Source of the DNA: a virus
Strand: one strand, 5' to 3'
Virus record (IMG/VR): IMGVR_UViG_3300047548_001253
Coordinates: 1-34,240 of that record
Length of the DNA: 34,240 nt
The notes beneath the pieces are model-generated. The model did no database searches, had not been told where the DNA came from, and saw nothing but the letters and a program-made list of their open reading frames with translations. Below are positions 24,191 through 30,554 of the stretch, one piece after another. Made by a program: the position numbers and the translations under genes. Positions within the stretch are counted from its first letter, which is position 1; each line of letters opens with the position of its first letter.

Positions 24191-26605
24191 ATGAAAGAAG
24201 AAATCCTCAAGCGGGCCATGTTTGCGATGCCCCTGTCCAAAGAGGCTCGCAATTCCGGGATCATGTCCGGGTTTGACATGGAAGAGCCTGAAGAGGCCGA
24301 CCAGGACGAAAACGCCGAGATGGAGGAGATGCCCGCCATGGCCCGCACGCCTCAGAATCCGGAGATTCTGATGAACAACCTGCGTGGCGACATGCGCTCG
24401 GTGGACGCTCGCTACCTGGAGCTGGCCCAAATGGTGGGCGAAGAAGCTGCCATGGAGACCCCTCCCGAGGTGCTCGCCATGTTGCAGCCGCAACTGGCCG
24501 CTCAGCAAGGCGGTATTGGTGCGCTGCCCCAGGCCCAAGGCATGATGCCTCCGGGCGCACAACAGCCTGCTCCCCCGCAGATGGGCGAGGCTCCTCAGCA
24601 ACCTGGCCCGGCCATGCCCCAAGGTGGTATTCCCATGCCCCAGGGCATGGAGAGTGCACCCCCTTTTTCCCAGGGGGCTGAGGCCCCGCAAGGCTACGCC
24701 CATGGCGGGATGGTAGAGCCTGCCACTCCGGACGGCATGCCCCCGATGCACGCTGCACTGGGCGCCCTGATCACCCCGGCCACCCGCGCTGCTCAGTTCA
24801 TGAGCGACAAGGCTGGCGCGATGAACGCGGCCCTTGGTCGGATGTACATGTCCCCGTCGATGAGCCAGCCGTTCCTGGAAAACGTGCGCGGCCCGGGTGG
24901 TCGTTTTACCGCTGAGCAGATTGCTCGTGGCGGGGACCTGGCTTATCCGACGTTTACGCAAGGCCTGGGCCAAGCGATTGCCAGCACTGCGGACAAATAT
25001 CCGCGGATCGCGGCCATGGCTGCGCCCGCCTTGGGCGCACTGGGCCTGTCTGCCGCTCCCAAAGGCGGTGCTCCTGGGCAGCCAATGGGCAGTGCCCTGG
25101 CTGATCAAATTCCCACGGATTCCCTGGCCGAAATGCAGGGCCGCAATGTGGCCGCGCAGACCCCTGCCGTGTCGATGAGCCTGGACAAGGCATTCACTAC
25201 CACTGCTCCTGATCGGTACAAGATCACCGAGGGGGCGCCTGTGGAGCAAGACGTCACTCCTGCCAAGCCTGCAATGCCCCTGCCTACACCGACGGCGGCA
25301 TTCCCTGAGGACTTTGGTGCCGAGACGGCTGCCGCCCCTGAAAAGACCACTGCGTCGTTTATCGAAGACAAGCTCAAGGAAGCCGTCAAAGAAAAGACCA
25401 AGGCTGATCGCATCAAAGAGGCGACTGGGGAGTACATGCCCCTGTTCAAAGAGCTGCTGGGCGAGGACAAAGAATCGGCCAAGATGAATGCGCTGCTGCT
25501 GTTGTCCGAAGCTGGCCTGAAGCTGGCCAGCACGCGCAAGCCGACATTTGCCATGGCCGTGGGCGAGTCTTTTGCTGGCGTACCGAAAGGTTTTGCCGCT
25601 ATTGCTGCCCAGGAGCGCGAACTGGGCATCAAGATCAAGGGGATGGCCCTGCAGCAGGCCATCAGCGACGTGGACGCTCAAGACAAATACGCCCAGGCCC
25701 TCAAGCTGCAGGTGCTCAAGGGCGACTACGATCTGCTCAAGGAACAGGCCAAAAAGGGCGGCACAGTCACCGAAGACGCTGGCATGGGTCTGCGTTTGGT
25801 CAAGACCAAGGACGGCGGCTCGTACGTTGGCACCGGTATTGATCCGAAAGACCCGGCTGTGGTCAGCGCGCTGGGTACGGAACAGGCCCCCAACCGCTGG
25901 ACTCTGCGCGATACCGACAACCCGTTTGTCGAGAACCGCGGCCAGGCTCCGACCACGATCGAGACCAACAAGGAAGAGCGTGTCAAGCTGGGCAGCACTT
26001 TGCGCTCGCTGGACAACAGCCTGAAGACGCTGGAAAACCTCAAAGGCCTGTATACCCAGGCCTATGGCCCCGGCGCATGGTTCTCGGACAAGGTCAACAA
26101 CCTATTGGTTCCGGTTGATCCTACTGGCATGGTGCGTCCCAACTTTGATACTGCCGACGCGGCTACTCGCATCAGCACCGGCATGAACAGCATCCTGAAA
26201 AACATCGCCTCGGCCAATGACAATGGTCGTGTCGCGGTACAGGAACAGGAATGGGCACGGGATACTGCCAAGGGCATCTCTGATCCCACCAAGTTCTTTG
26301 CTGACAAGGAGCTTGCTGCCAAGCAATTCAACAGCATGGAGGCCATGCTGCGCAACTCCCGCCAGCAGGTTCTCACGCAACTGGGCTACGTCAAGGACGA
26401 CTACGTCATGAACACGCCCAACACCGGCACAAAGAATGACCCGTTCGTGATTCCCACTGATCCGAACCAGCAAAAGATCATGTTCACCTTCTTGGGCAGC
26501 ACACTGGGCAAGCTCCAAGATCCGCGGGCCACGGTGTATTTGAAGATGCCAAATGGTAAAGTGGATGCATTCAATCCCACTCAACTGCGAGGCCTGATCC
26601 AATAA
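24191..26605 (+). CDS. Internal virion / ejection-type protein 3
   Basis: An 804-residue protein with AAGGA before its start. Residues 1-50 are acidic, 85-180 are a Met/Pro/Gln/Gly-rich linker containing YAHGGM (169-174), and 185-290 have hydrophobic Ala/Gly helices (PRIAAMAAPALGALGLSAAP). From about 390 on it is a long alpha-helical region (TKADRIKEATGEYMPLFKEL, then LLLLSEAGLKLASTRKPTFA and GFAAIAAQERELGIKIKGMA) with coiled-coil-like stretches. The C-terminal 200 residues include RISTGMNSILKNIASANDNG and a folded end. It overlaps the next gene by one base (TAATG). The function is inferred from position in the trio; no catalytic motif was recognised. Confidence 0.65.
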   Translation: MKEEILKRAMFAMPLSKEARNSGIMSGFDMEEPEEADQDENAEMEEMPAMARTPQNPEILMNNLRGDMRSVDARYLELAQMVGEEAAMETPPEVLAMLQPQLAAQQGGIGALPQAQGMMPPGAQQPAPPQMGEAPQQPGPAMPQGGIPMPQGMESAPPFSQGAEAPQGYAHGGMVEPATPDGMPPMHAALGALITPATRAAQFMSDKAGAMNAALGRMYMSPSMSQPFLENVRGPGGRFTAEQIARGGDLAYPTFTQGLGQAIASTADKYPRIAAMAAPALGALGLSAAPKGGAPGQPMGSALADQIPTDSLAEMQGRNVAAQTPAVSMSLDKAFTTTAPDRYKITEGAPVEQDVTPAKPAMPLPTPTAAFPEDFGAETAAAPEKTTASFIEDKLKEAVKEKTKADRIKEATGEYMPLFKELLGEDKESAKMNALLLLSEAGLKLASTRKPTFAMAVGESFAGVPKGFAAIAAQERELGIKIKGMALQQAISDVDAQDKYAQALKLQVLKGDYDLLKEQAKKGGTVTEDAGMGLRLVKTKDGGSYVGTGIDPKDPAVVSALGTEQAPNRWTLRDTDNPFVENRGQAPTTIETNKEERVKLGSTLRSLDNSLKTLENLKGLYTQAYGPGAWFSDKVNNLLVPVDPTGMVRPNFDTADAATRISTGMNSILKNIASANDNGRVAVQEQEWARDTAKGISDPTKFFADKELAAKQFNSMEAMLRNSRQQVLTQLGYVKDDYVMNTPNTGTKNDPFVIPTDPNQQKIMFTFLGSTLGKLQDPRATVYLKMPNGKVDAFNPTQLRGLIQ

Positions 26606-29600
26606 TGGTTACCTTGACCAACGCCCGTGGAGAGGTCGTCGATCTGACGACTGGTGAAGTCGTCGGACGCGCCGAAGGTGCACCTGCGGCGGCGGAGCCG
26701 CGCAAAGCGGCAGGCCCGGATGTGGAAGCGCCTGGGGGCAAGACCGCCCAGGGCTTGATCAACAACCTGTCGTGGGGCTTCAACAGTGCCCTGTTTGCGC
26801 TCCCGGACACAGGCGCCAAGATGATTGGCAAGGCTGTTGGCCTGGACCCTGAGCAGGTGTTCACGCTGACCAAGTTCTTCAACAGAGGCGAGCGTGCACC
26901 TGTCAACTCGACTGAGCGATATGCCCGGGCCGTGGGCGAAGGTGTTGGCGGCACGCTGCCCCTGACAGGTATTTTGGCCTGGGCGGCCAAGAGTGCCCCG
27001 CTGGTCAAGGCCGCTGAACCGGGGGCCGGGGTTCTCAAATCGATCGCCAACGACGCCATCAGCTACGTGCAAAAGAGCCCGGCCCAGGCCGCTGCTCTGG
27101 ATGTGGCTTTCGGTGCAGGCTACGAGGGCCTGCGCCAGGCTGTCGAAGAGAACGTCGACGAGTCCAACCCGTACAAGAACGTCTACAAAGAGCTGCTGCC
27201 TGCTGCCGCTTTCATGGGTTTGCCCATGGCTGCGGCAAGTCTGCCCAGCGTCAAGGCTGCAGGCTGGACATTGGACAAGATCAAGGGCGCATCCTCTGGC
27301 CTGGGTGGCGTGGAAAAAGAAGCGATCGCTTCTCTTCCCGCTGGCTATCGCCTGCCCCTGATCAACATCATCCCCAAAACGCTGGTCAAGCGCGCCGAGG
27401 GCAAGCTGGCGCAGGTGTTCGGCCCAATCAGCGAGAGCCCCGAAGCACAGGCCGCGCTCAAGCAACTGGAGACCGCGCTGAGCGATCCGCGGATCGCGGA
27501 TGCCGGTTTCCTGTTCGATGTGTCCGAGCGGACCATGTACAACCCGCTGCTCAAGCGCAAGGCAGAACTGCTCGAGCAGCTCGGCCCCAAGGAGCTGGAA
27601 TCGGTCAAGGCCCGCATCAACGAGAACCAGCAAAAGCTCTCTGCCCTGTTCGATTCCTTCTCGCCCGAGGCGCGCAAGCCGATCGAGGAAGCCTTCCTGG
27701 CCGCCCAGCAGGAGCGCCAGGGGCTGTTCGAAGGCCTGCTGCGCCAGCGCAAAGACCTGACCGACGCCGAGGTGACCGCCATCTCTGAGCGCCTTGGCCC
27801 GCAGAACATCGACATGCTCAACAACGAGCTGCGCGGCGTGATCCTGGCCGACATGGAAGCCGACTTTGGCATGCGCCAGAAGATCCTGTCCAAGCTGGGC
27901 ATGAAGCGCGGCGTCAACCCTGATGGCACCCTGGCCGACACCCGCGTGCGTGAAGGCGCTGATGCAGGCAAATCCCTGTACCCCGCATACGACATCGAGT
28001 CAGCAGCGCGTAAGCTGGTCGAAAAATACAACCCGGCCCGCGCAACGGGGACCAAGGGCGGCCCGATGCCCGAGCCCATTCGTATCCTGTCCGACATGGT
28101 CCGCGCAACGGACATGGCGCGCAGCAAGGCGCTCAACCAGGCCACCGAATCCCTGATCCAGCAGCGCGTGAATGAGCAGCTTGCTGGCTATCCGCTGGAC
28201 GACGCCCTGCGCGAGCAGGTCATCAACAACGTCCGCGGGCTGATCAAGCCCACCGGCACCAAAGGCAAGAAAGCGGCTGAAGAGCTTGCTCGCCAGATGA
28301 CCATCCAGAAGGCGGCGGGTATTGCTCCTGTCGGGGGCAAAGCGGGGGAGGTGGCGGTGTCCACTGGCATCCCGGGCCGTCCGATCTACATCAACCCGGA
28401 CCAGATCAAAACTGACGCTGAGATGATCGCTCGTCAGGGAACTGCACTGGACGTCAACATCCCCGAAGCACTGGACTTGCTGGCCGCTGCGCAACGTGCT
28501 CGCCACGATGGCGTGAACGCATTCAACCGCTCGATGATGTCGGGCCGCGGAACGCGGATCACGGATGCTCAGCTGCGCCTCGACCGTGGAAATGCGGCAT
28601 ACAAGGACGTGGAAGACCTGGTCCTCGGTGCGGTGCCCAAGGTCAGCCAGGAATATGACGCCATGAAGATGGCGCTGGATGACTACAACGCCGGGTTCGA
28701 AAAGCGCCTGCCGTTGCTGCTGACATCGCAGAAGGCCGGGGGCCGGGAATTCCTGCTGCCCAATGAAGATTTGATGCGCACGGCGTTCAAAACTGCAGAA
28801 AATCTCCGCCAACTGAACGTCACCCTGGGCAACAGCCCCATCAAGGAAGACTTGATGACCAAGGGCGCGATCGACTGGCTGCGCTCCAAAGGCGCTGTCA
28901 ACCAGGAAGGCCTGGTCGATCCGAAGAAGATTCGCAGCATCTTGGACAACAACAAGAACATTGTTGAGTCACTGCCTCAGCCCGTTCAGCAGCGGCTGCG
29001 CGACGAGGTGGCCAACGCAGACGACTTTGCCAAGCGCATGGGCGAACTCGATCGCCGCCGCGTCGACGCGACCAACAATGAGCTTGACATGCTGCTGGCC
29101 AAGGCCAGCCGCCCGGATGCAGACCCTCAGCAGATCATGGCCAAGGCGCTGCAAGATCCCGCCACCATGCGCACGCTGGTCGATCAGCTGGGCAAGGACC
29201 CCGATAGCCTGAGCGCCCTTCGTCGCAAGGTCTGGGACTTGGCCACGGAAGGTGCCCAAGGCGGCGGTGCTCTGGCCAACTTCCTCAAGGCCAATGAGAA
29301 GTCGCTGTCCGTTCTGTTCAAAAACACCGGCCACCTCAACGACCTCAAGACGCTGGCCGACCTGCAACGCCGGGTCAACGCTTTTGCCGACGTGACCGGG
29401 CAGATTCCTGCTTTCGATTCGCTGGACGAATCGATGAAACGCCTGTTCGGTTCCGGCATCCAGTTCCTGACGACCACGATGCGTGAAGCAGCCGTGGGCC
29501 GGATCAACCCGCAGACCGGTGCCCTGGCAGTGCTGTTGCGCCTGACTGGCTCGATCGAGAACCAGCTCTACCAGCGTATCTTCACCAAGGCGCTGGAGGA

Positions 29601-29991
29601 TCCCGAGTTCGCCAAGTCGATGGTGCGCGTAGGCACCCCGGCAGAGGCCAAGAAAGTTGCGGCCAAGCTGCAGGATATCGGCATCTCCCCGACCAGGTAC
29701 GTGCCCAATGTGGCGCGGCTCACGGCCCTCGAAGCAGCTGACGTGACCAAAGAGCAGGGCCCCGTGCCTACCGCCACGGCAGGCTTGCCTGTGGCACGCC
29801 CTACGGCAGCCGAGATGATGCGCAAACTGCCGCCTGCTCCGCCGACCACGGGGCTGCCACAGATGCGCATGGGACCGCCGCCCGCGGCCAAGGGGCCCAC
29901 ACCCCCGAGCCTGATGTATCCGCAGCTGTTCCCCAATGACCCAATTAGCCAGTTGCTGCAGCAGCGGCAACAACAAGTAGGAGCCCAGTGA
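26605..29991 (+). CDS. Large internal virion / ejection-type protein 4 (1128 residues)
   Basis: The longest gene of the window. The start is coupled to the preceding stop (TAATG). The N-terminal 250 residues hold several hydrophobic or amphipathic helices (TLPLTGILAWAAKSAPLVKA, AAAFMGLPMAAASLPSVKAA). The rest to about residue 1000 is highly helical and charged, with few Cys and little low-complexity sequence. The last 80 residues are Pro/Ala-rich (KLPPAPPTTGLPQMRMGPPP) and probably disordered. Size, place as last of the large consecutive genes and helical character fit T7 gp16-like ejection proteins, but I see no lytic transglycosylase E-S or G-L-M-Q motif. A transmembrane conduit role is inferred only. 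Confidence 0.65.
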   Translation: MVTLTNARGEVVDLTTGEVVGRAEGAPAAAEPRKAAGPDVEAPGGKTAQGLINNLSWGFNSALFALPDTGAKMIGKAVGLDPEQVFTLTKFFNRGERAPVNSTERYARAVGEGVGGTLPLTGILAWAAKSAPLVKAAEPGAGVLKSIANDAISYVQKSPAQAAALDVAFGAGYEGLRQAVEENVDESNPYKNVYKELLPAAAFMGLPMAAASLPSVKAAGWTLDKIKGASSGLGGVEKEAIASLPAGYRLPLINIIPKTLVKRAEGKLAQVFGPISESPEAQAALKQLETALSDPRIADAGFLFDVSERTMYNPLLKRKAELLEQLGPKELESVKARINENQQKLSALFDSFSPEARKPIEEAFLAAQQERQGLFEGLLRQRKDLTDAEVTAISERLGPQNIDMLNNELRGVILADMEADFGMRQKILSKLGMKRGVNPDGTLADTRVREGADAGKSLYPAYDIESAARKLVEKYNPARATGTKGGPMPEPIRILSDMVRATDMARSKALNQATESLIQQRVNEQLAGYPLDDALREQVINNVRGLIKPTGTKGKKAAEELARQMTIQKAAGIAPVGGKAGEVAVSTGIPGRPIYINPDQIKTDAEMIARQGTALDVNIPEALDLLAAAQRARHDGVNAFNRSMMSGRGTRITDAQLRLDRGNAAYKDVEDLVLGAVPKVSQEYDAMKMALDDYNAGFEKRLPLLLTSQKAGGREFLLPNEDLMRTAFKTAENLRQLNVTLGNSPIKEDLMTKGAIDWLRSKGAVNQEGLVDPKKIRSILDNNKNIVESLPQPVQQRLRDEVANADDFAKRMGELDRRRVDATNNELDMLLAKASRPDADPQQIMAKALQDPATMRTLVDQLGKDPDSLSALRRKVWDLATEGAQGGGALANFLKANEKSLSVLFKNTGHLNDLKTLADLQRRVNAFADVTGQIPAFDSLDESMKRLFGSGIQFLTTTMREAAVGRINPQTGALAVLLRLTGSIENQLYQRIFTKALEDPEFAKSMVRVGTPAEAKKVAAKLQDIGISPTRYVPNVARLTALEAADVTKEQGPVPTATAGLPVARPTAAEMMRKLPPAPPTTGLPQMRMGPPPAAKGPTPPSLMYPQLFPNDPISQLLQQRQQQVGAQ

Positions 29992-30368
29992 TGGAAGAGC
30001 TCATCGCTACCCTGTTCATGAGCCGTGAGTTCGCCCATCGCCGCCATCTCCTGGTGACGGGTCCCGGCAGCTATGCTGCTCATGTAGCCCTCAATTCGTT
30101 CTACGACGACATCATCGACAACGCTGATTCGATTGCCGAGGCCTGGCAAGGTCGTCATGGCTTGATGGACGAGATTCCGTACTTCACCCCGACCCTGGGC
30201 AAGAAGACGATCGCCGCCACCGCCACGGAACTTGAAAAGCACATGGAGAAGGTGCAGGACATTCGCTACGAAGCCTGCCCCAAGACCGAGACAGCGATTC
30301 AAAACCTGATCGACGAGGCCGTGGCCACGTACCTGTCAGTGATCTACAAACTCCGCAACCTTGAATGA
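29991..30368 (+). CDS. Dps/ferritin-like small protein (DUF5856-type)
   Basis: A 125-residue, four-helix-type protein whose ATG overlaps the stop of the preceding gene (TGATG). H19, H31, D46 and E50 have the spacing H-x11-H-x14-D-x3-E, identical to the ferroxidase ligands of Dps (E. coli H51, H63, D78, E82). Around them G24, A29, F37, I42, D43 and A49 also agree with Dps, and helix B (SYAAHVALNSFYDDIIDNAD) carries the metal residues. A following QGRHGL matches the loop after Dps helix B. The family is, I believe, catalogued as DUF5856, with no assigned function. It is shorter than Dps (about 167 residues) and lacks its Lys-rich tail. A Fe(II)/peroxide-handling or DNA-protecting role is inferred. 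Confidence 0.72.
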   Translation: MEELIATLFMSREFAHRRHLLVTGPGSYAAHVALNSFYDDIIDNADSIAEAWQGRHGLMDEIPYFTPTLGKKTIAATATELEKHMEKVQDIRYEACPKTETAIQNLIDEAVATYLSVIYKLRNLE

Positions 30369-30377
30369 GGGCACGCC

Positions 30378-30554
30378 ATGGCAACGAAGAAATGGATCAG
30401 CGAAGCAATCAAGAAACCCGGCGCTCTGCGCTCCGAGCTTGGTGTGAAAGAGGGGAAAACCATCCCCGCCAAGACACTGGCCAAGGCCGCCAAGGCCCCG
30501 GGCAAGATGGGTCAACGCGCCCGTCTGGCTCAGACTCTCAAGAAAATGAAATGA
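30378..30554 (+). CDS. Tiny basic conserved phage protein
   Basis: A 58-residue ORF. A longer reading of the frame is not needed: ATG at 30378 follows GAGG and starts MATKKWISEAIKKPGALRSE, then LGVKEGKTIPAKTLAKAAKA, KMGQRARLAQTLKKMK. The pattern KKWI-x-x-AIKKPGALR-x-x-LGVK, IPAK, GQRARLAQTL matches a family of very small Lys-rich proteins found in many phages, which I know without an assigned role. It is highly basic and likely helical. Its stop overlaps the next start (ATGA), so the two are coupled. Confidence 0.82.
   Translation: MATKKWISEAIKKPGALRSELGVKEGKTIPAKTLAKAAKAPGKMGQRARLAQTLKKMK

Follow-up and report, generated by a model that had tools for sequence, protein, structure and literature searches.

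The late gene region of a 34,240-nucleotide viral sequence (IMG/VR record IMGVR_UViG_3300047548_001253, hereafter the window) encodes a short protein that is almost certainly homologous to Dps and shares its fold (Table 1). The family to which it belongs, DUF5856, is well supported as a trimmed relative of this bacterial iron-storage and DNA-protection protein. The best reading of the window protein, which we consider reasonably probable, is that of a minimal Dps-type mini-ferritin, associated with the virion, whose putative inter-subunit iron site would limit Fenton damage. As the four putative iron-site residues are unvarying and relatives occur in purified particles, some phages may carry an iron-detoxifying protein of their own. 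DUF5856 is present in T4 and in well over a thousand other sequenced phage genomes, and for this domain there is now a specific enzymatic proposal that can be put to the test in T4, a model phage amenable to genetics. Should the reading hold, virions would carry iron-detoxifying chemistry, which bears on phage stability, on infection under oxidative stress and on the claim that phages carry iron.

Table 1. Features of the Dps-like gene and its surroundings, in window coordinates
Feature	Positions	Strand	Remarks
1128-aa ORF, upstream neighbour of the Dps-like gene	26605..29991	+	probable internal/ejection virion protein (inferred)
Likely ribosome-binding site, GGAG	29980..29983	+	read directly from the sequence
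DUF5856/phrog_858 Dps-like protein, 125 aa plus stop	29991..30368	+	four predicted helices, residues 2-19, 27-56, 74-95 and 101-124
H16 codon, invariant extra His, H-x2-H	30036..30038	+	family alignment
H19 codon, proposed Fe ligand, corresponds to Dps H51	30045..30047	+	profile alignment, invariance
H31 codon, proposed Fe ligand, corresponds to Dps H63	30081..30083	+	profile alignment, invariance
D46 codon, proposed Fe ligand from the two-fold partner, corresponds to Dps D78	30126..30128	+	profile alignment, invariance
E50 codon, proposed Fe ligand from the two-fold partner, corresponds to Dps E82	30138..30140	+	profile alignment, invariance
D108 codon, invariant helix D Asp, no E. coli Dps counterpart	30312..30314	+	family alignment

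Family assignment, homology to Dps and predicted fold

An earlier note on this DNA, made from the sequence alone, had guessed that the protein belongs to DUF5856, and a Pfam search confirmed the guess (PF19174; 53 bits against a gathering cut-off of 34.6, E = 7.6e-14). The protein also matches phrog_858 (E = 3.8e-16), which carries the label 'starvation-inducible transcriptional regulator'. An NCBIfam search with the protein returned no match, and Pfam Ferritin had no match in the window. The PHROG label probably reflects remote similarity to Dps, and we know of no experiment that underlies it; if the mini-ferritin reading is true, it is a misleading label repeated in phage annotation. Besides this label, the public product names of phrog_858 members include 'metalloregulation DNA-binding stress protein', 'zinc finger protein', 'DNA binding protein' and 'structural protein'. 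A search of the available literature collection found no mention of DUF5856. A cellular origin of the family is unlikely, as only 10 loci were found in a collection of bacterial and archaeal genomes, nearly all of them on MAG contigs and probably phage-derived.

Profile comparisons link the window protein to Dps in both directions. It matches phrog_3636 (profile HMM, E = 3.8e-6), the PHROG that is matched by E. coli Dps (3.5e-27) and by a Streptomyces-phage Dps (3.2e-34), and these two proteins reciprocally match phrog_858 (0.009 and 1.8e-4, respectively). Given these cross-matches, the homology does not depend on the four proposed ligand residues alone. Alignment of the family profile with a profile of eight Dps sequences using hhalign gave a probability of 93% (E = 3.5e-7, score 46), and alignment with the single E. 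coli Dps sequence was not significant. Because success required the Dps profile, a shuffle control was run, in which the score reached at most 18.9 in 300 column shuffles and 17 with the reversed profile. Searches of PDB sequences with phmmer and hmmsearch gave only weak Dps matches, mixed in the profile search with unrelated helical proteins, and a scan of viral contigs with E. coli Dps as the query yielded nothing usable.

The AlphaFold2 model of the window protein (46 sequences; pLDDT 96.3, pTM 0.90) is a four-helix ferritin-like bundle. The antiparallel four-helix Dps core, on which the earlier note had staked its proposal, is present in this model, and the PDB matches listed by Foldseek are Dps or ferritin-superfamily structures in 50 of 50 cases (probability 0.99-1.00), with a TM-score to E. 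coli Dps of 0.77. The Foldseek E-values are weak (best 0.02) despite a probability of 1.00, as can be expected with a small helical bundle. A relative with the shorter H-x8-H spacing described below was modelled with a pLDDT of 93.5 and has the same kind of PDB neighbours. No BC helix is found in the window model between residues 57 and 73.

Matches to the window model in BFVD include Dps-like four-helix domains within longer phage proteins annotated as prohead protease (432, 333 and 763 aa), NUDIX hydrolase (713), ParB/sulfiredoxin (754) or 'Dps' (498-679), as well as domains of this kind in the giant viruses Fadolivirus and Pithovirus. A Dps-like domain fused to a head protease would fit head packaging.

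Invariant residues and the predicted metal site

The four residues singled out in the earlier note, H19, H31, D46 and E50, are spaced H-x11-H-x14-D-x3-E, as are H51, H63, D78 and E82 of E. coli Dps (MG1655), and the profile alignment places the two sets in the same register. In shuffled versions of the window protein, this pattern arises with a frequency of 0.07%. In an alignment of 92 relatives, extending from podovirus relatives of 82% identity to T4, RB49, CC31, LIMEstone1, Caulobacter and huge phages, invariance is limited to nine columns (H16, H19, S27, H31, D46, E50, G54, D108 and L121), which take in each of the four proposed ligands (hypergeometric p = 1.3e-5). The motif H-x2-H-x(8 or 11)-H-x14-D-x3-E is kept in 152 of 152 full-length members from IMG/VR and the genome collection, the spacer between the second and third histidines being 8 residues in 122 and 11 in 30. 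The exact Dps spacing claimed earlier thus holds for the window protein and its subgroup, but not family-wide, where H-x8-H is found in 122/152.

Helix B is continuous, and helix geometry sets H31 and D46, 15 residues apart, at about 22 Å from each other. The two residues therefore cannot share a metal within one chain, and we infer that a four-residue site could form only across the two-fold interface. Metal binding at such a putative dimer interface is in our judgement quite probable. In the closer relatives position 13 is invariably acidic (E or D), and H16 and D108 may make up a further site or pair internally.

With E. coli Dps and the dodecameric mini-ferritins (PF00210) the window protein has in common the four-helix fold, the ligand register and profile homology, whereas it is shorter (125 against 167 aa), lacks the BC helix in its model and does not reach Pfam Ferritin. 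The fifth residue of the Dps site, D67, is N35 in the window protein and G, N, Q or E in relatives, and Trp52, next to H51 in Dps, is replaced by L20. The basic N-tail of E. coli Dps is also missing: the window protein has no basic tail at either terminus, the model helices running to both ends, and it is acidic (pI 5.2, charge -7), as is T4 RI.-1 (pI 5.6). A basic DNA-binding tail is a feature of E. coli-type Dps and is not found in all Dps.

RI.-1 of T4 (MobD.6), which matches both DUF5856 (E = 5e-33) and phrog_858 (9e-55), has the same invariant residues as the window protein. The two proteins differ in that the window protein belongs to the podovirus branch, has the H-x11-H spacing and is encoded among structural genes, whereas RI.-1 has the H-x8-H spacing and its gene lies directly behind rI.

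Gene neighbourhood and virion proteomes

The late structural neighbourhood proposed for the gene is supported by the genes that share its strand. The + strand genes, which reach to about 31 kb, include head and lysis genes (those for the portal, a GroES-like protein, the major head protein and an endolysin), and the - strand of the window encodes an exonuclease and a helicase. The start codon of the Dps-like ORF shares 1 nt with the stop codon of the 1128-aa ORF upstream (TGATG, 29989-29993). The position given in the earlier note, directly after ejection proteins, is therefore borne out as a position, but the ejection identity of the upstream ORF is less secure, since it was drawn from size and place and the ORF has no PHROG match.

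Similar arrangements recur in relatives. In 22 loci the family gene has immediately 5' of it a homologue of the 1128-aa ORF, encoding about 1130 aa, and in 30 loci the portal gene takes this place; starts and stops often overlap in these arrangements; in DSL-LC05 and MW202483 the family gene adjoins the portal gene, directly 3' of it. We also observed GroES-like genes in these surroundings. In the window, a phage-encoded GroES-like co-chaperonin (phrog_3188, positions 2236-2697) lies 3' of the portal gene; DSL-LC05 has a GroES-like gene just 5' of its portal gene, and in 11 related loci a small GroES-like protein is encoded two genes ahead of the family gene. Directly 3' of the acidic Dps-like ORF, the window has a 58-aa basic ORF rich in Lys and Arg (phrog_20603, function unknown, positions 30378-30551).

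The check by virion mass spectrometry that the earlier note had suggested is positive for relatives in three published proteomes. Family members gp108 and gp100 were detected in virions of ValerieMcCarty03 and 04 with 26 and 27 PSM, respectively (PMC13119998). ORF078 of LIMEstone1 was detected with 28% coverage and 3 peptides (PMC3296691), and its computed mass of 13.15 kDa agrees with the table of that paper. For the Kuttervirus Sajous1, 10 spectra are given for gp217 in CsCl-purified virions, together with a Phyre2 match of gp217 to 'ferritin' at 96.7% (PMC10892097). The motif is present in the members from ValerieMcCarty03, LIMEstone1 and Sajous1, and those from the first two phages also match DUF5856. 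These proteomes are those of relatives rather than of the window phage's own particles, and counts as low as these may reflect carry-over of an abundant cytosolic protein; by analogy, carriage in the virion of the window phage has about an even chance.

Through the Phyre2 match, the idea of a ferritin in the DUF5856 family is already partly in print; the Dps ligands, the link between DUF5856 and RI.-1 and the podovirus branch are not mentioned in the available sections of the Sajous1 paper (PMC10892097). In Ackermannviridae, the family gene lies within a small cluster encoding virion proteins confirmed by mass spectrometry and of unknown function (LIMEstone1 ORF078-082, L175:3137-6012; Sajous1 gp214-217), and in LIMEstone1 a late promoter is predicted just upstream.

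A proposed mini-ferritin function and its alternatives

In the mini-ferritin reading, two subunits would pair antiparallel as in Dps, and Fe(II) would be bound by H19 and H31 of one chain and D46 and E50 of the partner chain. This site would oxidise Fe(II), preferentially with H2O2, and would keep Fenton chemistry away from the DNA of the phage, whether inside the particle, during entry or late in the infection cycle. Ferroxidase activity, as judged from the conserved residues, is somewhat favoured. The missing basic tail and the acidic character of the protein point to protection via iron or peroxide chemistry rather than via DNA coating, and DNA protection as the selected role is a tentative proposal. 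We are more tentative still in extending this reading to the whole of DUF5856, T4 RI.-1 included, as a phage-specific mini-ferritin branch in or on virions, through which many tailed phages would have a particle-borne ferroxidase that shields their DNA against Fenton damage during storage or entry.

Alternatively, the Dps fold may have been kept for a structural or regulatory job without iron oxidation, either as a minor virion component or as an accessory of lysis inhibition, a role suggested for T4 RI.-1; we think this alternative unlikely. Relatives are listed as structural proteins, and the fifth Dps ligand and the Trp have been lost. Over-expression of T4 rI.-1, a member of the family, slightly delays the collapse of lysis inhibition according to a review (PMC6832632), an effect that, with the gene placed behind rI, fits an accessory role and is not obviously explained by a pure iron protein. 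However, the presence of the four ligand positions among only nine invariant columns is hard to explain without metal chemistry, and in the gene contexts seen no podovirus member has rI next to it.

A different metal (Zn or Mn), or an intra-chain centre composed of H16 and D108 with E13/E50, in place of the Dps-type inter-subunit ferroxidase, is distinctly unlikely. The invariance of H16 and D108, neither of which has an E. coli Dps counterpart, and the acidic residue kept at position 13 would suit such a centre, but the register with Dps is exact, and H31, which is likewise invariant, shares one straight helix with D46 at a distance of 15 residues. On this helix geometry the intra-chain site was set aside.

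The Sajous1 authors, after virion mass spectrometry and the Phyre2 match, put forward gp217, a protein of the same family, as tail-borne iron for entry via host iron uptake, a 'Ferrojan horse' (PMC10892097). In that paper, five phages of the Vi01-like group gave similar plating on tonB, feoB and double mutants. Podovirus and T4-like members of the family also differ in gene context. With the mutants infected normally, we set this explanation aside as very improbable for the window protein. Least probable of all is a DNA-binding or nucleoid-type regulator, which would agree with the PHROG name, with Dps homology and with the 'DNA-associated' group of virion proteins in PMC13119998, but was set aside because the protein is acidic, like RI.-1, and has no basic tails.

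To return to the mini-ferritin reading, canonical Dps homologues for which the same chemistry is proposed are already known on phages (phrog_3636; Streptomyces and Lactobacillus phages and the gut 'Gratiaviridae'). The one that we tested differs from the window protein in having a direct Pfam Ferritin match and in falling into another PHROG than the window's family. The window family is therefore not the first phage Dps, but a trimmed new variant of Dps.
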